DNA from: a virus
Direction: 5' to 3' (one strand)
Length of the DNA stretch: 37,961 nt
IMG/VR virus record: IMGVR_UViG_3300030107_003067
Location: 1-37,961 of that record
The notes beneath the pieces are model-generated. The model made no database searches and had not been told where the DNA came from. It was given only the letters and a program-made list of their open reading frames with translations. This document shows, one piece after another, positions 14,694-26,699 of the stretch (the first letter of the stretch is position 1; each line of letters opens with the position of its first letter). Both the position numbers and the translations under genes were made by a program.

Positions 14694-17018
14694 TTATTTA
14701 CATGCTTTCCAATTAGGTCCAGACGCAAAGTCTGCGGGTATTATTAATTCATCTTCCCAATAATACCCAAAACCTGTTGGAATTGGCTTTTCCATTTCTT
14801 CGCAAACTATAGCTTTAATTTGGTCTAAATCCCCTACTCTACATTGCCCTGCCACAGAGTCATGTACCTGAAGCAGTACAGATGCTTCAGGTATGGATTC
14901 TAAGCGAGTTTCTATACGCGCAAGCGATGCATTAATGTGATCTGCTGCTGTAGATTGTGGCACAAATGCTACAGCGGCTCGGTGCAATTGATCTCCCCAA
15001 CGATCTAAAAATATTCTTTGTCGGCCATAAGGAGTACGCATTACTCGATTAGACTTAAGATGTTGAATTGTGTTAATCCACCATTTATGTATGCCTGGTC
15101 TAAGTGTTTTAAAACTGTCAATAAATCTACGCGCATCGTTAAGTGTAAATGTCATAGTAGGTACATATTCATTCATTAAATCTTTGAGTTTACCTGGACC
15201 GACCATATAGTTAATTGCATGAGAAGCGCGTTTACCTATGTCACGATACGAATAATGAGTTCCTTCTACAATATCCCGTACTTGAGCCTCAGAAATTCTA
15301 AACAAAGCCATTGCATTTTCAGCGTGTATGTCACGGCCTTCTTTAAATCCTTGCATATAATTATAATCATTAGCTACATAAGCAGTAATTCTAGCTTCAA
15401 TTTGTGACCCATCAGCTTCCCAAAATACTAAATCTGGATCTGGTATAAACCAATCTCTTTGATCTCCTGGGACATTTTGAAGATTCATACCTTTGTTAAA
15501 TACATCTTTTGAGCTAGAAATTCTTCCTGTGTCTGTTGCTGAAGTTCTATATGATGTACGCATTCTTCCATCAGTATGAACTTTAGCTTCTAAATATGTT
15601 CCTATAATTTTACGCCTGTCACGTACAGCAAGACATTTATCTATAAATTCTGCATGTTTAGGTTGTCTAGGCCTAAGTAATTTTAATGTATGTACATCTG
15701 TAGATGCTGTTTTACGTCCCCGAGCTACTGGAAGTCGTATTCCTTTTGCGCTGAAGTAATCCAACACTTGTTTAGGACTGTTAGGATTAACCCCACACAA
15801 AGCATCATCGGCAAGAATACTACCCACCTCGTTAGTAAGCGTTTCTTTTCGTTGTGACCTAAGATTTTCATCTATATTTACTCCTTTGTGTTCCATACGA
15901 ATTAAGGTTTTTGTAACTGGCATAGCTACAGAATGAAAAAACTTCCAGGCTTTTGTTTCTATTAATTCGTGAGCTAATTTTACGGCTACTTCGTATGTAA
16001 CACAACAATCAATACCATTGTATTCCCATAAAGTATTGTTATAATTACCACTAGTAGCTTCTTTACGCATCTCTTTGTAGAAGTTTTTGTTTGTGTATAT
16101 AGATGCTAAAAGATCTAAACTATGACCCATTTCTGGATGCATTACTGAGTGTGCTACCATAGTGTCCATCCATACATTACGAACTTTAATGCCAAAGTTT
16201 TTAGCTAAATACTGAGCGTCATAATCTAAATTTTGCCCTACTTTAAGTGAGTTATTATTTAATAACTTACCTAAAGCTTTTATTAATTTTATTCTATGTT
16301 TATGTTGTAATTGTGATGTAAAAGGTATTACAATAGCGTCAAGTTCTGATCTTGCTACTCCTACACAAGTTATACATTCTGAGTATGTTTCAATGTCGAA
16401 TGCTAGACATTCCGCATTTTGATAAGACTCAAGAGCTGTTATAAACAATTTAGTTATAAGATCAGAATCTTCCGTTGCATAGTCTTTTTTTAGTTGGCCG
16501 TAATGTATGATATTACGTTTATGATCTAAAATTGAATCATAATCTGTTATTACTCTTGCAGCCTTTTTAGCATCTTTACGGCACAACACTAACCATGAAT
16601 ATTGACGTATTATTGCTATAGGAGCAATCATAGGAATAACAGGGATTTTTCCTCTGTTAGACTGTAGCAATGATCCTCGCCATTTTGTGATGCCAGACTC
16701 AGAACATAAGAATTGTAATGCATATTCTCCTACTGCAATTATTAATTTACGCGGATGTTTTTGTATAACTTTCCAATTAACATCTGCGTATTCAAATGGA
16801 TTTTCTAATACATCTAATTTATTTGCCGGAGCTTGTTTAGGATACACATACATCACTAAACAATCTTTGCGGAAAATACCTGCTCGGGCTAGTATATCAT
16901 CAAACAACATATCTCCTTGCGAGCCTGCAAATGGTTGACCCGCTATAACATCATTTTTAGATGGAGATTCTCCTAGTATTAGAATTTCTGCTTTTTCGTT
17001 GCCTTCTGGTTGTATCAT
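14694..17018 (-). CDS. Family A DNA polymerase with N-terminal uracil-DNA-glycosylase-like domain
   Basis: 774 residues, three domains. Residues 1-165 resemble family 4/5 UDG (GESPS 16-20, GQPFAG 27-32, HPRKLIIAVGEYAL 88-101). The usual catalytic-region His-Pro is Ala132-Pro133, and no iron-sulfur Cys pattern is seen, so glycosylase activity is doubtful. Residues 200-350 are a 3'-5' exonuclease with intact Exo I (Asp208, Glu210), Exo II (Asn263...Asp267) and Exo III (Tyr333...Asp337). Residues 380-774 are the polymerase: motif A ADGSQIE (Asp536), motif B RDIGKRASHAINY (Arg592, Lys596, Tyr604, with His600 at the position numbered 762 in E. coli Pol I), and motif C HDS (719-721) in place of HDE. 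This is the phage replicase. UDG-like N-termini are known on some phage PolA proteins such as that of SPO1. Ribosome site AGGAGTTATAAATTA. Confidence 0.93.
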   Translation of the reverse strand: MIQPEGNEKAEILILGESPSKNDVIAGQPFAGSQGDMLFDDILARAGIFRKDCLVMYVYPKQAPANKLDVLENPFEYADVNWKVIQKHPRKLIIAVGEYALQFLCSESGITKWRGSLLQSNRGKIPVIPMIAPIAIIRQYSWLVLCRKDAKKAARVITDYDSILDHKRNIIHYGQLKKDYATEDSDLITKLFITALESYQNAECLAFDIETYSECITCVGVARSELDAIVIPFTSQLQHKHRIKLIKALGKLLNNNSLKVGQNLDYDAQYLAKNFGIKVRNVWMDTMVAHSVMHPEMGHSLDLLASIYTNKNFYKEMRKEATSGNYNNTLWEYNGIDCCVTYEVAVKLAHELIETKAWKFFHSVAMPVTKTLIRMEHKGVNIDENLRSQRKETLTNEVGSILADDALCGVNPNSPKQVLDYFSAKGIRLPVARGRKTASTDVHTLKLLRPRQPKHAEFIDKCLAVRDRRKIIGTYLEAKVHTDGRMRTSYRTSATDTGRISSSKDVFNKGMNLQNVPGDQRDWFIPDPDLVFWEADGSQIEARITAYVANDYNYMQGFKEGRDIHAENAMALFRISEAQVRDIVEGTHYSYRDIGKRASHAINYMVGPGKLKDLMNEYVPTMTFTLNDARRFIDSFKTLRPGIHKWWINTIQHLKSNRVMRTPYGRQRIFLDRWGDQLHRAAVAFVPQSTAADHINASLARIETRLESIPEASVLLQVHDSVAGQCRVGDLDQIKAIVCEEMEKPIPTGFGYYWEDELIIPADFASGPNWKACK

Positions 17019-17154: not shown

Positions 17155-17392
17155 CAAGTTGCCTTGTGGTTCTTACAGCTTTGTATCTAGGCTTAGGTCT
17201 GAAGTAAATTGTATCGTGTGGAACATTAGGCCATCCTTGAGCATTCATGAGGGTTTTAGTTTTATGAGGTTTCATGTGAACTTTAATTCCTCTTTCGTCT
17301 ACGGTTATTTGGACTCTGCCGCAAGATGTATATACGTTTACTACTTGTTGATTTGCTCCAAATCTTGTGCTATGAATTTTATGCTGTTTCAT
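17144..17392 (-). CDS. Small basic hypothetical protein between the methyltransferase and polA
   Basis: 82 residues, basic (pI clearly high; clusters such as MKPHKTK and RPKPRYKAVR). The middle, NQQVVNVYTSCGRVQITVD, reads as beta strands. It has a GGAG ribosome site and its start overlaps the end of the ParB-methyltransferase gene by 14 bases, consistent with co-translation. No family was recognised. Its base composition matches its neighbours. It may bind nucleic acid, given its charge and position among replication genes. Confidence 0.65.
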   Translation of the reverse strand: MKQHKIHSTRFGANQQVVNVYTSCGRVQITVDERGIKVHMKPHKTKTLMNAQGWPNVPHDTIYFRPKPRYKAVRTTRQLDTK

Positions 17393-18722
17393 GAGTAGTC
17401 TCCATTACAAGTCTAGATTTAGTTACTTTAAGGGCTTCTGGGTTTTTGTCACAACCTAAAGCTCTACGACCTGTTTGTATGGCAGCTACAAGATGGCCTC
17501 CTGAACCACAACACGGATCTATAACTAGTTCACCTTTAAGTGTACACATTTCTATTAGGTGCTTTAAAAGATCTAGAGGTCTTTCCGTAGGGTATTTACT
17601 ACTTGCAGGTCTTTGAAATGATACCATGTTTGGACCTAAACGTTCGGGCATACTTACAGTGCCTTTACGTAAATGGCATAAATACTCGTATGTTTGATCT
17701 CCTGTAGCAGCTCCATTTATTGCAGGTGTAGATTTAATTTTGTTCCAAATCCACGGTGGATATTCAAACTCTAAATCTGGAATTAATGTACATGCGCGTT
17801 CAATCCAAAATGTTTGTATCCAAGAACTAAAAATCCACATATGAGCGTTAGGTTTTAAGGCTAAATATAGTTTTGGTATTAGTTCTTGTACAAAAAGTTT
17901 AATTTCATTTTCGTCGTCTTCCCATTGTGTACCGTGAGAAGATTTAGCCAAAGTTTGAGAGTTAAATACATCTATACCAAAAGGTAAATCTGTTAGTATT
18001 AAATCTACACTTTCTTCTTCGAGTGTTTTTAACCAATCTAACGCATCACTTAAAACTGCTACACCTTCTAGATCTTGTCTATGAGACTCCATTGCTCTAC
18101 GTGCTATTTCACCTCGTATTTCTTTTATTTTATATGCTTTAAATTTACCTAAGATGCCGCTTTTAGACGTTTCGTCTTCTAAGTGTTTTAATTCAGGGAT
18201 GTGTTCTGCTATATCTAAAACTCTAGCTACTTTTCTATGATCACTTACTGAGGCTTCTGATATATTTAAATCTTCTGCTGTGTCTTTTTGGGAGTGACCC
18301 CCGTCCACCGCTCCTCTACCTCTTTTCTTTTTTCCTTTCTTTTGCTCCATAAGACGTTCATATTCATCTACAGCACGAGATTCTTCTGCGGGAGTTAATG
18401 GCTCACGTTTTATGTTTTCTTGAAGTTCTATTGTATGTCTATGCCAATCGTCTTGAGGTTCGATTACAGAAACTTTTATTTCTTTAAAATTTTCCCAATG
18501 CTCAAACTGAGATTTTAATTGAATTATATGTTTTACTGCTTTTAATCTGCGTTCTCCTGCAATTAATACATTGTTTGTGTCTATTACAATAGGTTGAATT
18601 TGACCTACTTCATGAATACTTGTAGCAAGTTCAGTAATTTTAGCAGGATTAAATTCACGCCGTTGCCGCATCATAGGAATACGAACTTTGTATGGATCCA
18701 TAGTACGTATGTTATCAGTCAT
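17379..18722 (-). CDS. ParB-domain / HTH / DNA methyltransferase fusion
   Basis: 447 residues. Residues 8-115 form a ParB N-terminal domain, including the GERRLKA box (Arg58-Arg59 region). Residues 142-170 hold a ParB-type helix-turn-helix (SQKDTAEDLNISEASVSDHR). Residues 225-447 are an amino-methyltransferase of the order seen in beta-class enzymes: catalytic motif IV first (TDLPFGIDV, DLPF at 245-248), then the SAM-binding motif (DPCCGSGG from Asp402). Such enzymes add a methyl group to adenine N6 or cytosine N4. ParB-methyltransferase fusions are known in phages. The likely role is protecting phage DNA from host nucleases, possibly guided to palindromic sites by the ParB/HTH part. A strong terminator lies only about 15 nt before its start codon. 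Confidence 0.88.
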   Translation of the reverse strand: MTDNIRTMDPYKVRIPMMRQRREFNPAKITELATSIHEVGQIQPIVIDTNNVLIAGERRLKAVKHIIQLKSQFEHWENFKEIKVSVIEPQDDWHRHTIELQENIKREPLTPAEESRAVDEYERLMEQKKGKKKRGRGAVDGGHSQKDTAEDLNISEASVSDHRKVARVLDIAEHIPELKHLEDETSKSGILGKFKAYKIKEIRGEIARRAMESHRQDLEGVAVLSDALDWLKTLEEESVDLILTDLPFGIDVFNSQTLAKSSHGTQWEDDENEIKLFVQELIPKLYLALKPNAHMWIFSSWIQTFWIERACTLIPDLEFEYPPWIWNKIKSTPAINGAATGDQTYEYLCHLRKGTVSMPERLGPNMVSFQRPASSKYPTERPLDLLKHLIEMCTLKGELVIDPCCGSGGHLVAAIQTGRRALGCDKNPEALKVTKSRLVMETTHETA

Positions 18723-18802: not shown

Positions 18803-19285
18803 CTACAGAACAAACCGTTCGATTTTGATCGAAGTGCCTGAGTTTCCTGTAACATCATTAGTCCATTCTTCAGACTTAATTTTAGCATTAGCTTCAGTGC
18901 CGATTGCGGAATCTAAGTCTTCAGAAACATTATTTTGAATATCTTCAAAGTTTAGTTTAACTTTGCGATTTTCGTATTCTTCGCTATCAGGATCTAAGTC
19001 GTTAAGCTCTGAAAGCCTGTCTGCAAAGATAGCGGTTGTAGCTTGGTTAAAAAACCAAGAACCCCACGAACACCAATGAAATACCGTGAAGCCATTATCG
19101 TCTGGATTCTCAGCGTTAATGACTTTGAACTCAAAATTAATGCCAGGCTTTTCAGAAGATCTTGACTCTCGATAGGTCCACTTACTAAACATAAGTTCGT
19201 AGGTTCCAGGATCTAAAGTGCGGTCGAGCTTCTTCTTTTCGTTTTCGAGGCTACCAAATTCGAGGTCTTGATAAAGTTCACTCAT
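18803..19285 (-). CDS. Single-stranded-DNA-binding-like protein (recombination module)
   Basis: 160 residues, acidic, with a beta-rich core: GTYELMFSKWTYRESRSSEK, then INFEFKVINAENPDDNGFTV, then the aromatic FHWCSWGSWFF stretch. It resembles the DUF669-type proteins that travel with Sak4/RecA-like annealing genes and are considered ssDNA-binding proteins. It has no acidic SSB-style tail; the end is IKIERFVL. It lies two genes below the Sak4-like ATPase, fitting a role in coating single strands for replication or recombination. Ribosome site AAGGATAAAACTTACT. SSB-like function is inferred from size, composition and neighbours. Confidence 0.55.
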   Translation of the reverse strand: MSELYQDLEFGSLENEKKKLDRTLDPGTYELMFSKWTYRESRSSEKPGINFEFKVINAENPDDNGFTVFHWCSWGSWFFNQATTAIFADRLSELNDLDPDSEEYENRKVKLNFEDIQNNVSEDLDSAIGTEANAKIKSEEWTNDVTGNSGTSIKIERFVL

Positions 19286-24515: not shown

Positions 24516-24713
24516 TTATTTTACTTTTACAATTATGCCATTTTTCATGGTCACTGTCGCAAACCATTTTCGGTTATATGGCGAAGGCCCAACTCCGGTA
24601 ATATCGCCGTCTTTTGTGTATTCTGGGCCAAATACGCTTGTTTCTGTGTATTTAAGCCTTTCGCCGATACTTTCTTTTAGTGCTTTCTTCGTTTTGTAGC
24701 TTAAGCCTATCAT
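24516..24713 (-). CDS. Small basic hypothetical protein with terminator in its leader
   Basis: 65 residues, basic. SYKTKKALKESIGERLKYTE is helical, then VGPSPYNRKWFATVTMKNG suggests a beta hairpin. It has the same 16-nt leader as the 24228 gene and is likewise preceded by a terminator within 20 nt. Not recognised. The repeated terminator-leader-gene cassette suggests shared regulation. Confidence 0.65.
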   Translation of the reverse strand: MIGLSYKTKKALKESIGERLKYTETSVFGPEYTKDGDITGVGPSPYNRKWFATVTMKNGIIVKVK

Positions 24714-24731
24714 TTTGTTTTGTCCTTATGT

Positions 24732-24762
24732 AAAAAAAGGTAGTGGGATTGCTCCCACTACC
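24732..24762 (-). terminator. Intrinsic terminator after the 24779 gene
   Basis: A perfect 10-bp stem (GGTAGTGGGA with TCCCACTACC, loop of 4) followed on the minus strand by seven T residues. The T-tract lies 19 nt from the ATG of the next gene. Confidence 0.85.
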
Positions 24763-24778
24763 CTTTAGACTTCTTAGA

Positions 24779-25210
24779 TTAGACGTTCAGTGCTGCGGCT
24801 TTCTTCGCTTCGCGCTCTATGTGTGCGTTGCGTAGTTCGTCGAACAAATCTACGTTTTGAGCCTTTAACTCGGTTAGGGTTTCGGCATCTCCCGCGCTGA
24901 GAGCCTTACGGAATGCGCTTTTAAATACTTTAATTTCTGGGTTGCTTGTCTCCCTTGCCGGATCTTTGACCACACTAATTGCGTGATTCAATCCGTTTTG
25001 AACTAAGTCTTTAAGAGATCCGTTTGCCTCGCCACCAACCGCTTCATACCATTCTTCGAGCAATGCGCTATAATCCACACTATCACTTGTGATACGGAGC
25101 TTAGGCCAGTCATAAGACGGTTTGCTCGCGTCTTGGCGGTTGACTGTGTGAAGACGGATCTGATAGCTCTCATGCTCTACTACTACTTCCAACTCTTCAT
25201 ATGCTGGCAT
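24779..25210 (-). CDS. Early hypothetical protein controlled by a pseudoknot leader (143 aa)
   Basis: 143 residues, acidic. The N-terminal 50 residues look beta-rich (YEELEVVVEHESYQIRLHTV). The C-terminal half is helical with a Lys/Ala/Glu pattern (ETLTELKAQNVDLFDELRNA, then AKKAAALNV). No family was recognised. It is the first gene of the leftward block to the left of the control region, and is bounded by its own promoter-like sequence and a strong terminator, so it is a single-gene unit. Its start codon lies inside a hairpin competing with a pseudoknot domain, so its expression is probably controlled at translation. Confidence 0.75.
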   Translation of the reverse strand: MPAYEELEVVVEHESYQIRLHTVNRQDASKPSYDWPKLRITSDSVDYSALLEEWYEAVGGEANGSLKDLVQNGLNHAISVVKDPARETSNPEIKVFKSAFRKALSAGDAETLTELKAQNVDLFDELRNAHIEREAKKAAALNV

Positions 25211-25292
25211 TTTATAAATGCCTTTCTACAGGGATTGAATTTGAACCCGTCAACATAGTCCCTGTATTGCTATGTTTGGGCTTTGGCATTTT
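25206..25292 (-). promoter_or_regulatory. Candidate riboregulator: H-type pseudoknot leader with competing start-codon hairpin
   Basis: Minus-strand RNA, 5' to 3'. AAAUGCC (25291-25285) can pair with GGCAUUU (25222-25216), closing a domain. Inside it, AACAUAG (25276-25270) pairs with CUAUGUU (25258-25252). The loop between those strands, UACAGGGA (25266-25259), pairs with UCCCUGUA (25234-25227), giving a pseudoknot with a CAA first loop. AGCCC with GGGUU can extend the first stem. GGCAUUU can alternatively pair with AAAUGCC at 25212-25206, which contains the AUG of the 24779-25210 gene, in a 7-bp hairpin with a 3-nt loop. The two pairings exclude each other, the hallmark of a switch. Seen directly; function inferred. 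Confidence 0.6.
25212..25289 (-). CDS. 25-codon upstream ORF (leader peptide) inside the pseudoknot
   Basis: MPKPKHSNTGTMLTG followed by SNSIPVERHL. The start has AAAAAGGAAAGAAA directly upstream, a good ribosome site. The stop is one base before the AUG of the 143-residue protein gene, an arrangement used for translational coupling. Ribosomes on it would unfold the pseudoknot. It may be the sensor part of the leader or may be incidental to the duplicated AAAATGCC sequence. Confidence 0.4.
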   Translation of the reverse strand: MPKPKHSNTGTMLTGSNSIPVERHL

Positions 25293-25326
25293 CTTTCCTT
25301 TTTAGTGTTTGAATTTCTTATACCTA

Positions 25327-25354
25327 AATATAATGAATATACACTTGAGCGCAA
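25327..25354 (-). promoter_or_regulatory. Weak sigma70-type promoter for the pseudoknot-led gene
   Basis: TTGCGC, 16-base spacer, TATATT on the minus strand. The -35 is poor but lies inside a small palindrome (ACTTGCGCTCAAGT). It would start RNA near 25320, about 30 bases before the upstream ORF. Confidence 0.45.
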
Positions 25355-25498: not shown

Positions 25499-25541
25499 AA
25501 GTAGAGATTGAAAATACTATTATTTATACCGCGCAATACCT

Positions 25542-25725
25542 CATAATATCACATAATATCACGGTTTTAAGCACAATATGTAGTAGTTTAGCAAGAATTG
25601 TGCCAATACTATATGTAGTATGCCAGCAAATACCGTGCCAATGCCATAAAATACTACTTAGTACTAAATAATGCAAAGTGGTACTACTTAGTACCACATA
25701 ATATTGTAAAGTGCAAAGTGGTACC
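25542..25725. repeat. Cluster of short repeats and palindromes in the control region
   Basis: It contains CATAATATCA twice in tandem (25542, 25552), ATACTATATGTAGTAT (25606-25621), the RTACTA-CT-TAGTAY palindrome at 25651-25664 (one mismatch) and 25681-25694 (perfect), and TGCAAAGTGGTAC twice (25672, 25712). TGCCAA-type repeats also occur. No ORF longer than a few codons. These look like protein-binding sites for replication or transcription control. Confidence 0.5.
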
Positions 25726-25731
25726 GCGTCT

Positions 25732-25770
25732 GGGGGGTGGGGTGGGGGGAAGAGTTGTAGGGTTGGGGGG
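25732..25770 (+). promoter_or_regulatory. G-quadruplex-type run
   Basis: Runs of 6, 4 and 6 G separated by single T, then GGG and a further run of 6 G, all on the + strand. In a roughly 37%-G+C genome this is striking. It could fold as a quadruplex in the RNA from the 25470 promoter or in single-stranded DNA. It lies 18 bases before the octamer array. Confidence 0.6.
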
Positions 25771-25787
25771 CGGAGCTAGTTAAACTG

Positions 25788-25843
25788 TAAAGCGGTAAAG
25801 CAGTAAAGTAATAAAGTAATAAAGCAATAAAGTAGTAAAGTAA
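25788..25843 (+). repeat. Seven tandem octamers TAAAGYRR (iteron-like)
   Basis: Seven exact-length 8-bp units, TAAAG followed by CGG, CAG, TAA, TAA, CAA, TAG, TAA, preceded by a degenerate TAAACTG. Tandem iterons next to a G-rich run and a strong promoter suggest an origin or a regulator-binding array. A minus-strand ORF through it (25780-25851) encodes an 8-residue hydrophobic period, but that follows from the repeat and it lacks a ribosome site. Confidence 0.65.
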
Positions 25844-25858
25844 TTGTACATAGAGGTA

Positions 25859-25879
25859 TTAGTTCACAGTTTGAATTAA
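25859..25879. promoter_or_regulatory. 21-bp palindromic site, copy D
   Basis: TTAGTTCA, five bases, then TGAATTAA; one mismatch in symmetry. It lies 15 bases from the octamer array and before the terminator of the 25950 gene. Member of the four-copy family. Confidence 0.55.
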
Positions 25880-26528: not shown

Positions 26529-26597
26529 GACTTTTTTTATGTTTTTTTCATTTTTTTTCTGGCACGATTTTTGAATGTAGCAAGATTTATGCCATAT

Positions 26598-26647
26598 CTA
26601 CTTAGTACTACTTGGTAGGGGGCACTACCACTTGGTACTACTTGGTA
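26598..26647 (+). promoter_or_regulatory. Phased 10-bp repeats upstream of the late genes
   Basis: CTACTTAGTA (26598), CTACTTGGTA (26608), CCACTTGGTA (26628) and CTACTTGGTA (26638): four 10-mers, pairs of them exactly one helical turn apart, 50-100 bases before the first late gene. They are related to the palindromes at 25651, 25681 and 17141. This looks like an activator or repressor array for late transcription. No convincing -35/-10 pair was found here, so the late promoter may need a phage factor. Confidence 0.5.
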
Positions 26648-26699
26648 CCGCGCAGCACTTGAGCAGTACAATACAAAAATTTGAAATGTAGGGGTATGT

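Follow-up and report, generated by a model that had tools for sequence, protein, structure and literature searches.

The DNA analysed here, called the window, comprises the 37,961 bases of virus record IMGVR_UViG_3300030107_003067. On its minus strand, a gene encoding an acidic protein of 143 residues heads a leftward block of early and replication genes, which includes a PD-(D/E)XK exonuclease, a ParB/methyltransferase fusion, a family A DNA polymerase and a primase/helicase. A structured leader lies directly 5' of this gene on the same strand (Table 1). The polymerase (14694-17018, minus strand) carries an N-terminal uracil-DNA-glycosylase-superfamily domain and a 3'-5' exonuclease domain in a single protein, and the fusion (17379-18722, minus strand) joins a ParB N-terminal domain to an N6/N4 DNA methyltransferase. 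A weak SSB-like match is found at 18803-19285, away from the 143-residue protein gene.

The regulated gene codes for a product that is acidic in all homologues (pI 4.7-5.0). The product had no match in Pfam or NCBIfam, PHROG matches at chance level only, no recognised fold in a fold search and no match among solved structures, and a homologue search of annotated phages and bacterial genomes returned none. None of the annotated phage records searched represents a close relative of the phage family carrying this leader.

All the pairings named in an earlier note on this DNA are present in the minus-strand sequence, namely the two stems of a pseudoknot, a closing stem and a hairpin around the start codon. 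The pseudoknot (25227-25276) is of the H type, with a 7-bp stem S1, a 3-nt loop L1, an 8-bp stem S2, an L2 of zero and a 17-nt L3, dimensions that we judge sterically ordinary for such knots. Four nucleotides separate it from the start-codon hairpin, which takes in the AUG of the 143-residue protein gene together with some of its Shine-Dalgarno (SD) sequence. We could also confirm that a 25-codon ORF placed behind AAGGA ends one base short of that AUG in the window. The sigma70-type promoter predicted further upstream reads TTGACA-16-TATATT in a related locus, L003, and the leader transcript is expected to start near 25320. Three devices, an upstream start, a knot and a putatively locked start, are thus packed into some 90 nt before the first gene of an early operon, and this leader probably acts as a small RNA switch that controls the gene.

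Table 1. Features of the leader and of the gene that follows it, in window coordinates.
Feature	Position	Strand	Sequence or description	Basis or remark
Regulated gene	24779-25210	-	Acidic 143-residue protein, pI 5.0; AUG at 25210-25208	Opens the leftward operon
Start-codon hairpin	25206-25222	-	GGCATTT-ATA-AAATGCC; arms GGCATTT (25222-25216) and AAATGCC (25212-25206)	GGTATC-GAAA-GATGCC in relatives
Shine-Dalgarno of the 143-residue protein gene	25221-25226	-	GAAAGG	GARAGG in 4/4 lineages; its GG is the hairpin foot
Pseudoknot S2, 3' strand	25227-25234	-	TCCCTGTA	TCCCTATA in L003, compensatory
Pseudoknot L3	25235-25251	-	17 nt, with invariant TCAAATTC inside	Alignment
Pseudoknot S1, 3' strand	25252-25258	-	CTATGTT	Abuts the S2 5' strand (L2 = 0)
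Pseudoknot S2, 5' strand	25259-25266	-	TACAGGGA	TATAGGGA in L003; TGCAGGGA in L002 and L008
Pseudoknot L1	25267-25269	-	CAA (CAT in L002 and L008)	Alignment
Pseudoknot S1, 5' strand	25270-25276	-	AACATAG	Sequence and conservation
Closing stem, 5' strand	25285-25291	-	AAATGCC (25291-25285), pairing with GGCATTT (25222-25216)	Window only, absent from relatives
Upstream ORF	25212-25289	-	25 codons, MPKPKHSNTGTMLTGSNSIPVERHL; stop UAA at 25214-25212	Sequence and homologues
Shine-Dalgarno of the upstream start	25296-25300	-	AAGGA	GGA 6-10 nt 5' of the upstream ATG in 4/4 lineages
Predicted sigma70-type promoter	25327-25354	-	TTGCGC-16-TATATT	Consensus match only; aligned in four lineages

A search of viral contigs by profile and by pattern yielded 14 loci with the 143-residue protein gene. 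Since L003-L006 and L014 have an identical leader, the distinct knot leaders number four (the window, L002, L003 and L008), and both the knot and the start-codon hairpin are retained in these four lineages. S2 is paired in all four sequences, with A-U or G-U at one pair and C-G or U-A at another. The start-codon hairpin pairs in 4/4 although its 5' arm and loop have been rewritten (GGCAUUU-AUA-AAAUGCC versus GGUAUC-GAAA-GAUGCC). Two pairs change on both sides, C-G to U-A in S2 of L003 and U-A/C-G in the start-codon hairpin; because there are only four distinct sequences, the covariation consists of just these two pairs, and its level was reached by 22 of 500 shuffles. S1 does not vary beyond the loss of one end pair in L008 and for this reason draws no support from covariation. 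Across the four lineages 98.8% of the cells are paired, against 30-45% once the partners are slid, and 40 of the 50 knot columns are invariant, compared with no more than 34 in any stretch of 50 columns of the gene.

The knot is confined to part of the family. Distant homologues have neither the knot nor the upstream ORF, and the knot is therefore not essential to the 143-residue protein gene. Outside the 14 loci, a loose knot pattern was fitted in viral contigs by L037 only, which lies in the coding sequence of an unrelated contig and which we rejected as fortuitous. Apart from it, no second copy was found in the window or at other genes of the viral contigs, and the pattern was not found in bacterial genomes. 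A search via the neighbouring 65-residue protein gene returned only relatives already found, or contigs without the regulated gene.

The small number of lineages and the absence of the knot from distant homologues might suggest that the folds arose by chance or persist as a relic without function. We regard this as extremely improbable, as it is contradicted by both the shuffle tests and the tests of constraint. On both strands of the window, one Watson-Crick knot with an S1 of at least 7 and an S2 of at least 8 pairs was observed, versus 0.07 expected in shuffles, and no such knot occurred in 3000 shuffled 121-nt leaders with G-U pairs permitted. Among the 37 gene starts of the window, a 7-pair hairpin with 3 G-C pairs is found only at the 143-residue protein gene, where it is the strongest local hairpin. 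The nested fold of the leader has a z of -2.1. In a nested model that leaves the knot out, the predicted probability that the AUG is unpaired is 0.27 in the window and 0.00 in L002, L003 and L008.

On the other hand, the comparison with homologues proposed in the earlier note did not favour all of its pairings. While the knot stems and the start-codon hairpin are kept in the four lineages, the closing stem has broken down in L002, L003 and L008, where we observed scattered pairs only. Since this stem is found in the window alone, the choice of one strand between the closing stem and the start-codon hairpin, which the earlier note had described as mutually exclusive, is not a conserved feature, and a conserved switch that includes the closing stem was rejected.

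The upstream frame is open in 4/4 lineages. Its description as a coupled upstream ORF holds for the window, where the ORF is free-standing because an extra base and changed codons place its UAA one base before the AUG; in L002, L003 and L008 no stop intervenes and the frame continues in phase into the gene, which would add an N-terminal extension of 26-27 residues. Over the knot, the amino acid is altered at 8 of 20 codons, and synonymous change affects 2 of the 11 codons whose amino acid is unchanged, versus 71 of 81 in the gene (Fisher P 5e-6). Given that synonymous sites are nearly frozen while amino acids change, selection acts on the nucleic acid and not on the peptide. A conserved leader peptide is thereby rejected, and the stems and nucleotides are kept where the codons are not, the opposite of the pattern that the earlier note had held against its own reading. 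The upstream SD and ATG are kept though codons 2-5 vary (MPKPK, MRKKPK, MRGKLQ, MSTHPQ), with a 3-nt difference in length. From these four sequences comes the suggestion that translation of the upstream ORF may matter and that its product may not.

The continuous reading frame that joins the upstream AUG to the gene in L002, L003 and L008 might instead reveal a gene with two starts, in which the upstream AUG is the usual start in most relatives, the folds tune the ratio of the isoforms and the window has lost the long form by a one-base shift. We consider this improbable, in view of the stop present in the window and of an extension that is not conserved as protein, its residues changing over frozen synonymous sites as described above. 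Moreover, the homologues outside the knot clade all begin at MPAY.

Constraint at the nucleic-acid level would also be compatible with a DNA element. Both stems are perfect dyads (AACATAG-N11-CTATGTT and TACAGGGA-N24-TCCCTGTA) lying some 45 nt into the expected transcript, where a repressor or activator could bind them downstream of the promoter. We give this explanation a slim chance, since the zero-gap geometry of the knot, the conserved start hairpin beside it and its location at the SD suit an RNA better, and the A-U to G-U change in S2 retains RNA pairing while breaking the symmetry of the DNA.

The reading we favour, to which we give about an even chance, is that of a leader controlling translation in cis, whose upstream start would open a hairpin-locked start under modulation by the knot. 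The SD and AUG of the 143-residue protein gene would be locked in the hairpin. Ribosomes would load at the upstream SD and AUG and translate through the knot, opening both knot and hairpin. In the window, they would terminate at the UAA one base before the AUG and then reinitiate, for which the UAA-A-AUG spacing appears suited. In the relatives, in-frame read-through would yield an N-terminally extended protein or, alternatively, make the internal AUG accessible to another ribosome. As for the knot, it may modulate the process by blocking ribosomes, by providing a stack that stabilises the hairpin or by binding a factor. The sequences themselves show that the folds can pair and are conserved, that the constraint lies at the nucleic-acid level, and how the SD-AUG pairs and frames are arranged; actual folding, use of the upstream start, its coupling to the gene and the part played by the knot go beyond this and are inferred. 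The earlier proposal of a translational riboregulator of an early gene thus survives in part: the conserved structured leader with its start hairpin, pseudoknot and upstream start remains, and the exclusive switch does not.

More tentatively, the leader may represent a new class of phage cis-regulatory RNA, in which an H-type pseudoknot within a translated frame abuts a hairpin holding the SD and AUG, senses leader translation or a specific factor and thereby adjusts how strongly the first early gene is expressed. Should the leader work as proposed, it would provide a compact gate on translation and a candidate for a new Rfam family. We know of few phage leaders outside T4 with a pseudoknot and a start-codon hairpin kept by nucleic-acid selection. 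The earlier note had recognised no known class in the leader, and the comparison with Rfam agrees, as no covariance model was matched at gathering score and the best chance-level matches were to unrelated families.

The closest systems in their working are the RepZ/RepA leaders of I-complex plasmids, followed by the T4 gene 32 operator. In the RepZ pseudoknot switch, reportedly the subject of work by Asano and Mizobuchi in 1998, a stem-loop hides the start of the downstream gene and a pseudoknot lies beside its SD. In the RepY/RepZ (RepB/RepA) arrangement of I-complex and IncL/M plasmids, for example ColIb-P9 repZ, the downstream gene needs translation of the leader ORF (PMC10286972). The phage leader resembles it in having a stem-loop that, from its pairing and predicted fold, would sequester the downstream SD and start, and a putative pseudoknot near that SD. 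It differs in the form of its knot, a compact H-type fold wholly inside the leader frame instead of a long-distance loop contact. As to a leader ORF with its own ribosome site, the window has one that ends near the gene start, and in three relatives the frame is fused to the gene. Of the other RepY/RepZ traits, an antisense RNA was sought through sigma70-type promoters only, none of which was found on the plus strand at 24700-25206, and a plasmid replication initiator finds no counterpart in the 143-residue protein gene, which has no family match.

In T4 gene 32, an H-type pseudoknot lies 5' of the ribosome-binding site of a phage replication gene. Over 40 nt of RNA downstream of that knot are less structured and contain UUAAA repeats, and the operator is bound by the gene's own SSB (PMC535899). 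The phage leader would share the H-type pseudoknot 5' of a ribosome-binding site. It differs in that only 15-16 nt, folded as a hairpin, separate the knot from the AUG, with no stretch of UUAAA or UAAA repeats, and in that the acidic product has no match to SSB, to Pfam or NCBIfam families or to a known fold. Because the antisense promoter, the initiator gene, the UUAAA tract and the SSB product were not found, we place the leader in neither type.

The gene 32 operator nevertheless provides a phage precedent (PMC535899) for the alternative that a small molecule or a protein of phage or host binds the knot and sets the state of the start hairpin, the upstream ORF being incidental. A compact and highly conserved knot adjoining the SD, including TCAAATTC in L3, would fit such an operator or riboswitch. 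Compact H-type knots beside the SD are known from the SAM-II and preQ1 classes; in contrast to these, the phage leader has no Rfam match and its gene no metabolic role that would suggest a ligand. The product is acidic throughout the family and belongs to no known family or fold, so it is unlikely to be an autorepressor binding its own RNA, and the knot is single. Overall, we hold an operator or riboswitch to be rather unlikely.

Like the pseudoknots of programmed -1 frameshifting, the phage knot is of the H type and lies within a putatively translated frame. No slippery heptamer (X-XXY-YYZ) located 5-9 nt before the knot in the upstream frame is kept among the four lineages, and both frames are already the same in the relatives; a frameshift element was rejected on these grounds.

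Returning to the family at large, the leaders of a sister clade (L007, at 590-640, L009, L010 and L012) contain two different hairpins, GTGGCA/TGCCAC and GGGAAA/TTTCCC, the latter also as GGGGAA/TTCCCC and GGAGAA/TTCTCC by compensatory changes. In five sequences including L011, five pairs of these hairpins change on both sides, a level reached by 7 of 500 shuffles. Structured leaders thus recur at the 143-residue protein gene as a habit of the family, yet differ between clades. Among T4-like phages, too, the presence of the gene 32 knot varies (PMC535899). Two further, nearly identical loci, L013 (4940-4990) and L015, may form a similar knot, in which AAGGGT, within the loop of a GATAG hairpin, could pair with ACCCTT immediately before the SD, and can form a hairpin around the AUG.

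The sister-clade hairpins begin about where a sigma54 transcript would start. Perfect sigma54-type (-24/-12) sites, TGGCAY-N5-TTGCW, occur in the window at 25590-25605, 25625-25640 and 26579-26594, all on the minus strand (three versus 0.14 expected), and also in L002, L003, L007, L009-L013, L015 and L047. Seven related contigs have 1-3 such sites each, and the reversed control has none. In the knot clade they include a tandem pair 35 bp apart; in other, distant clades a site lies 86-95 nt before the ATG of the same gene. Across the family, strong sites of this type precede the 143-residue protein gene and recur at other points of the intergenic region. To our knowledge, sigma54 control of phage genes is rare; a narrow literature search found no report of sigma54-controlled phage genes, and the window lacks a gene for a sigma54 activator protein (PF00158). 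Around the sites, the intergenic stretches 25540-25860 and 26590-26660 are densely filled with short repeats (ACTACTTAGTACCA and AAAGTAATAAAGTAATAAAGC, for example), which are possibly an origin or a region bound by a regulator.
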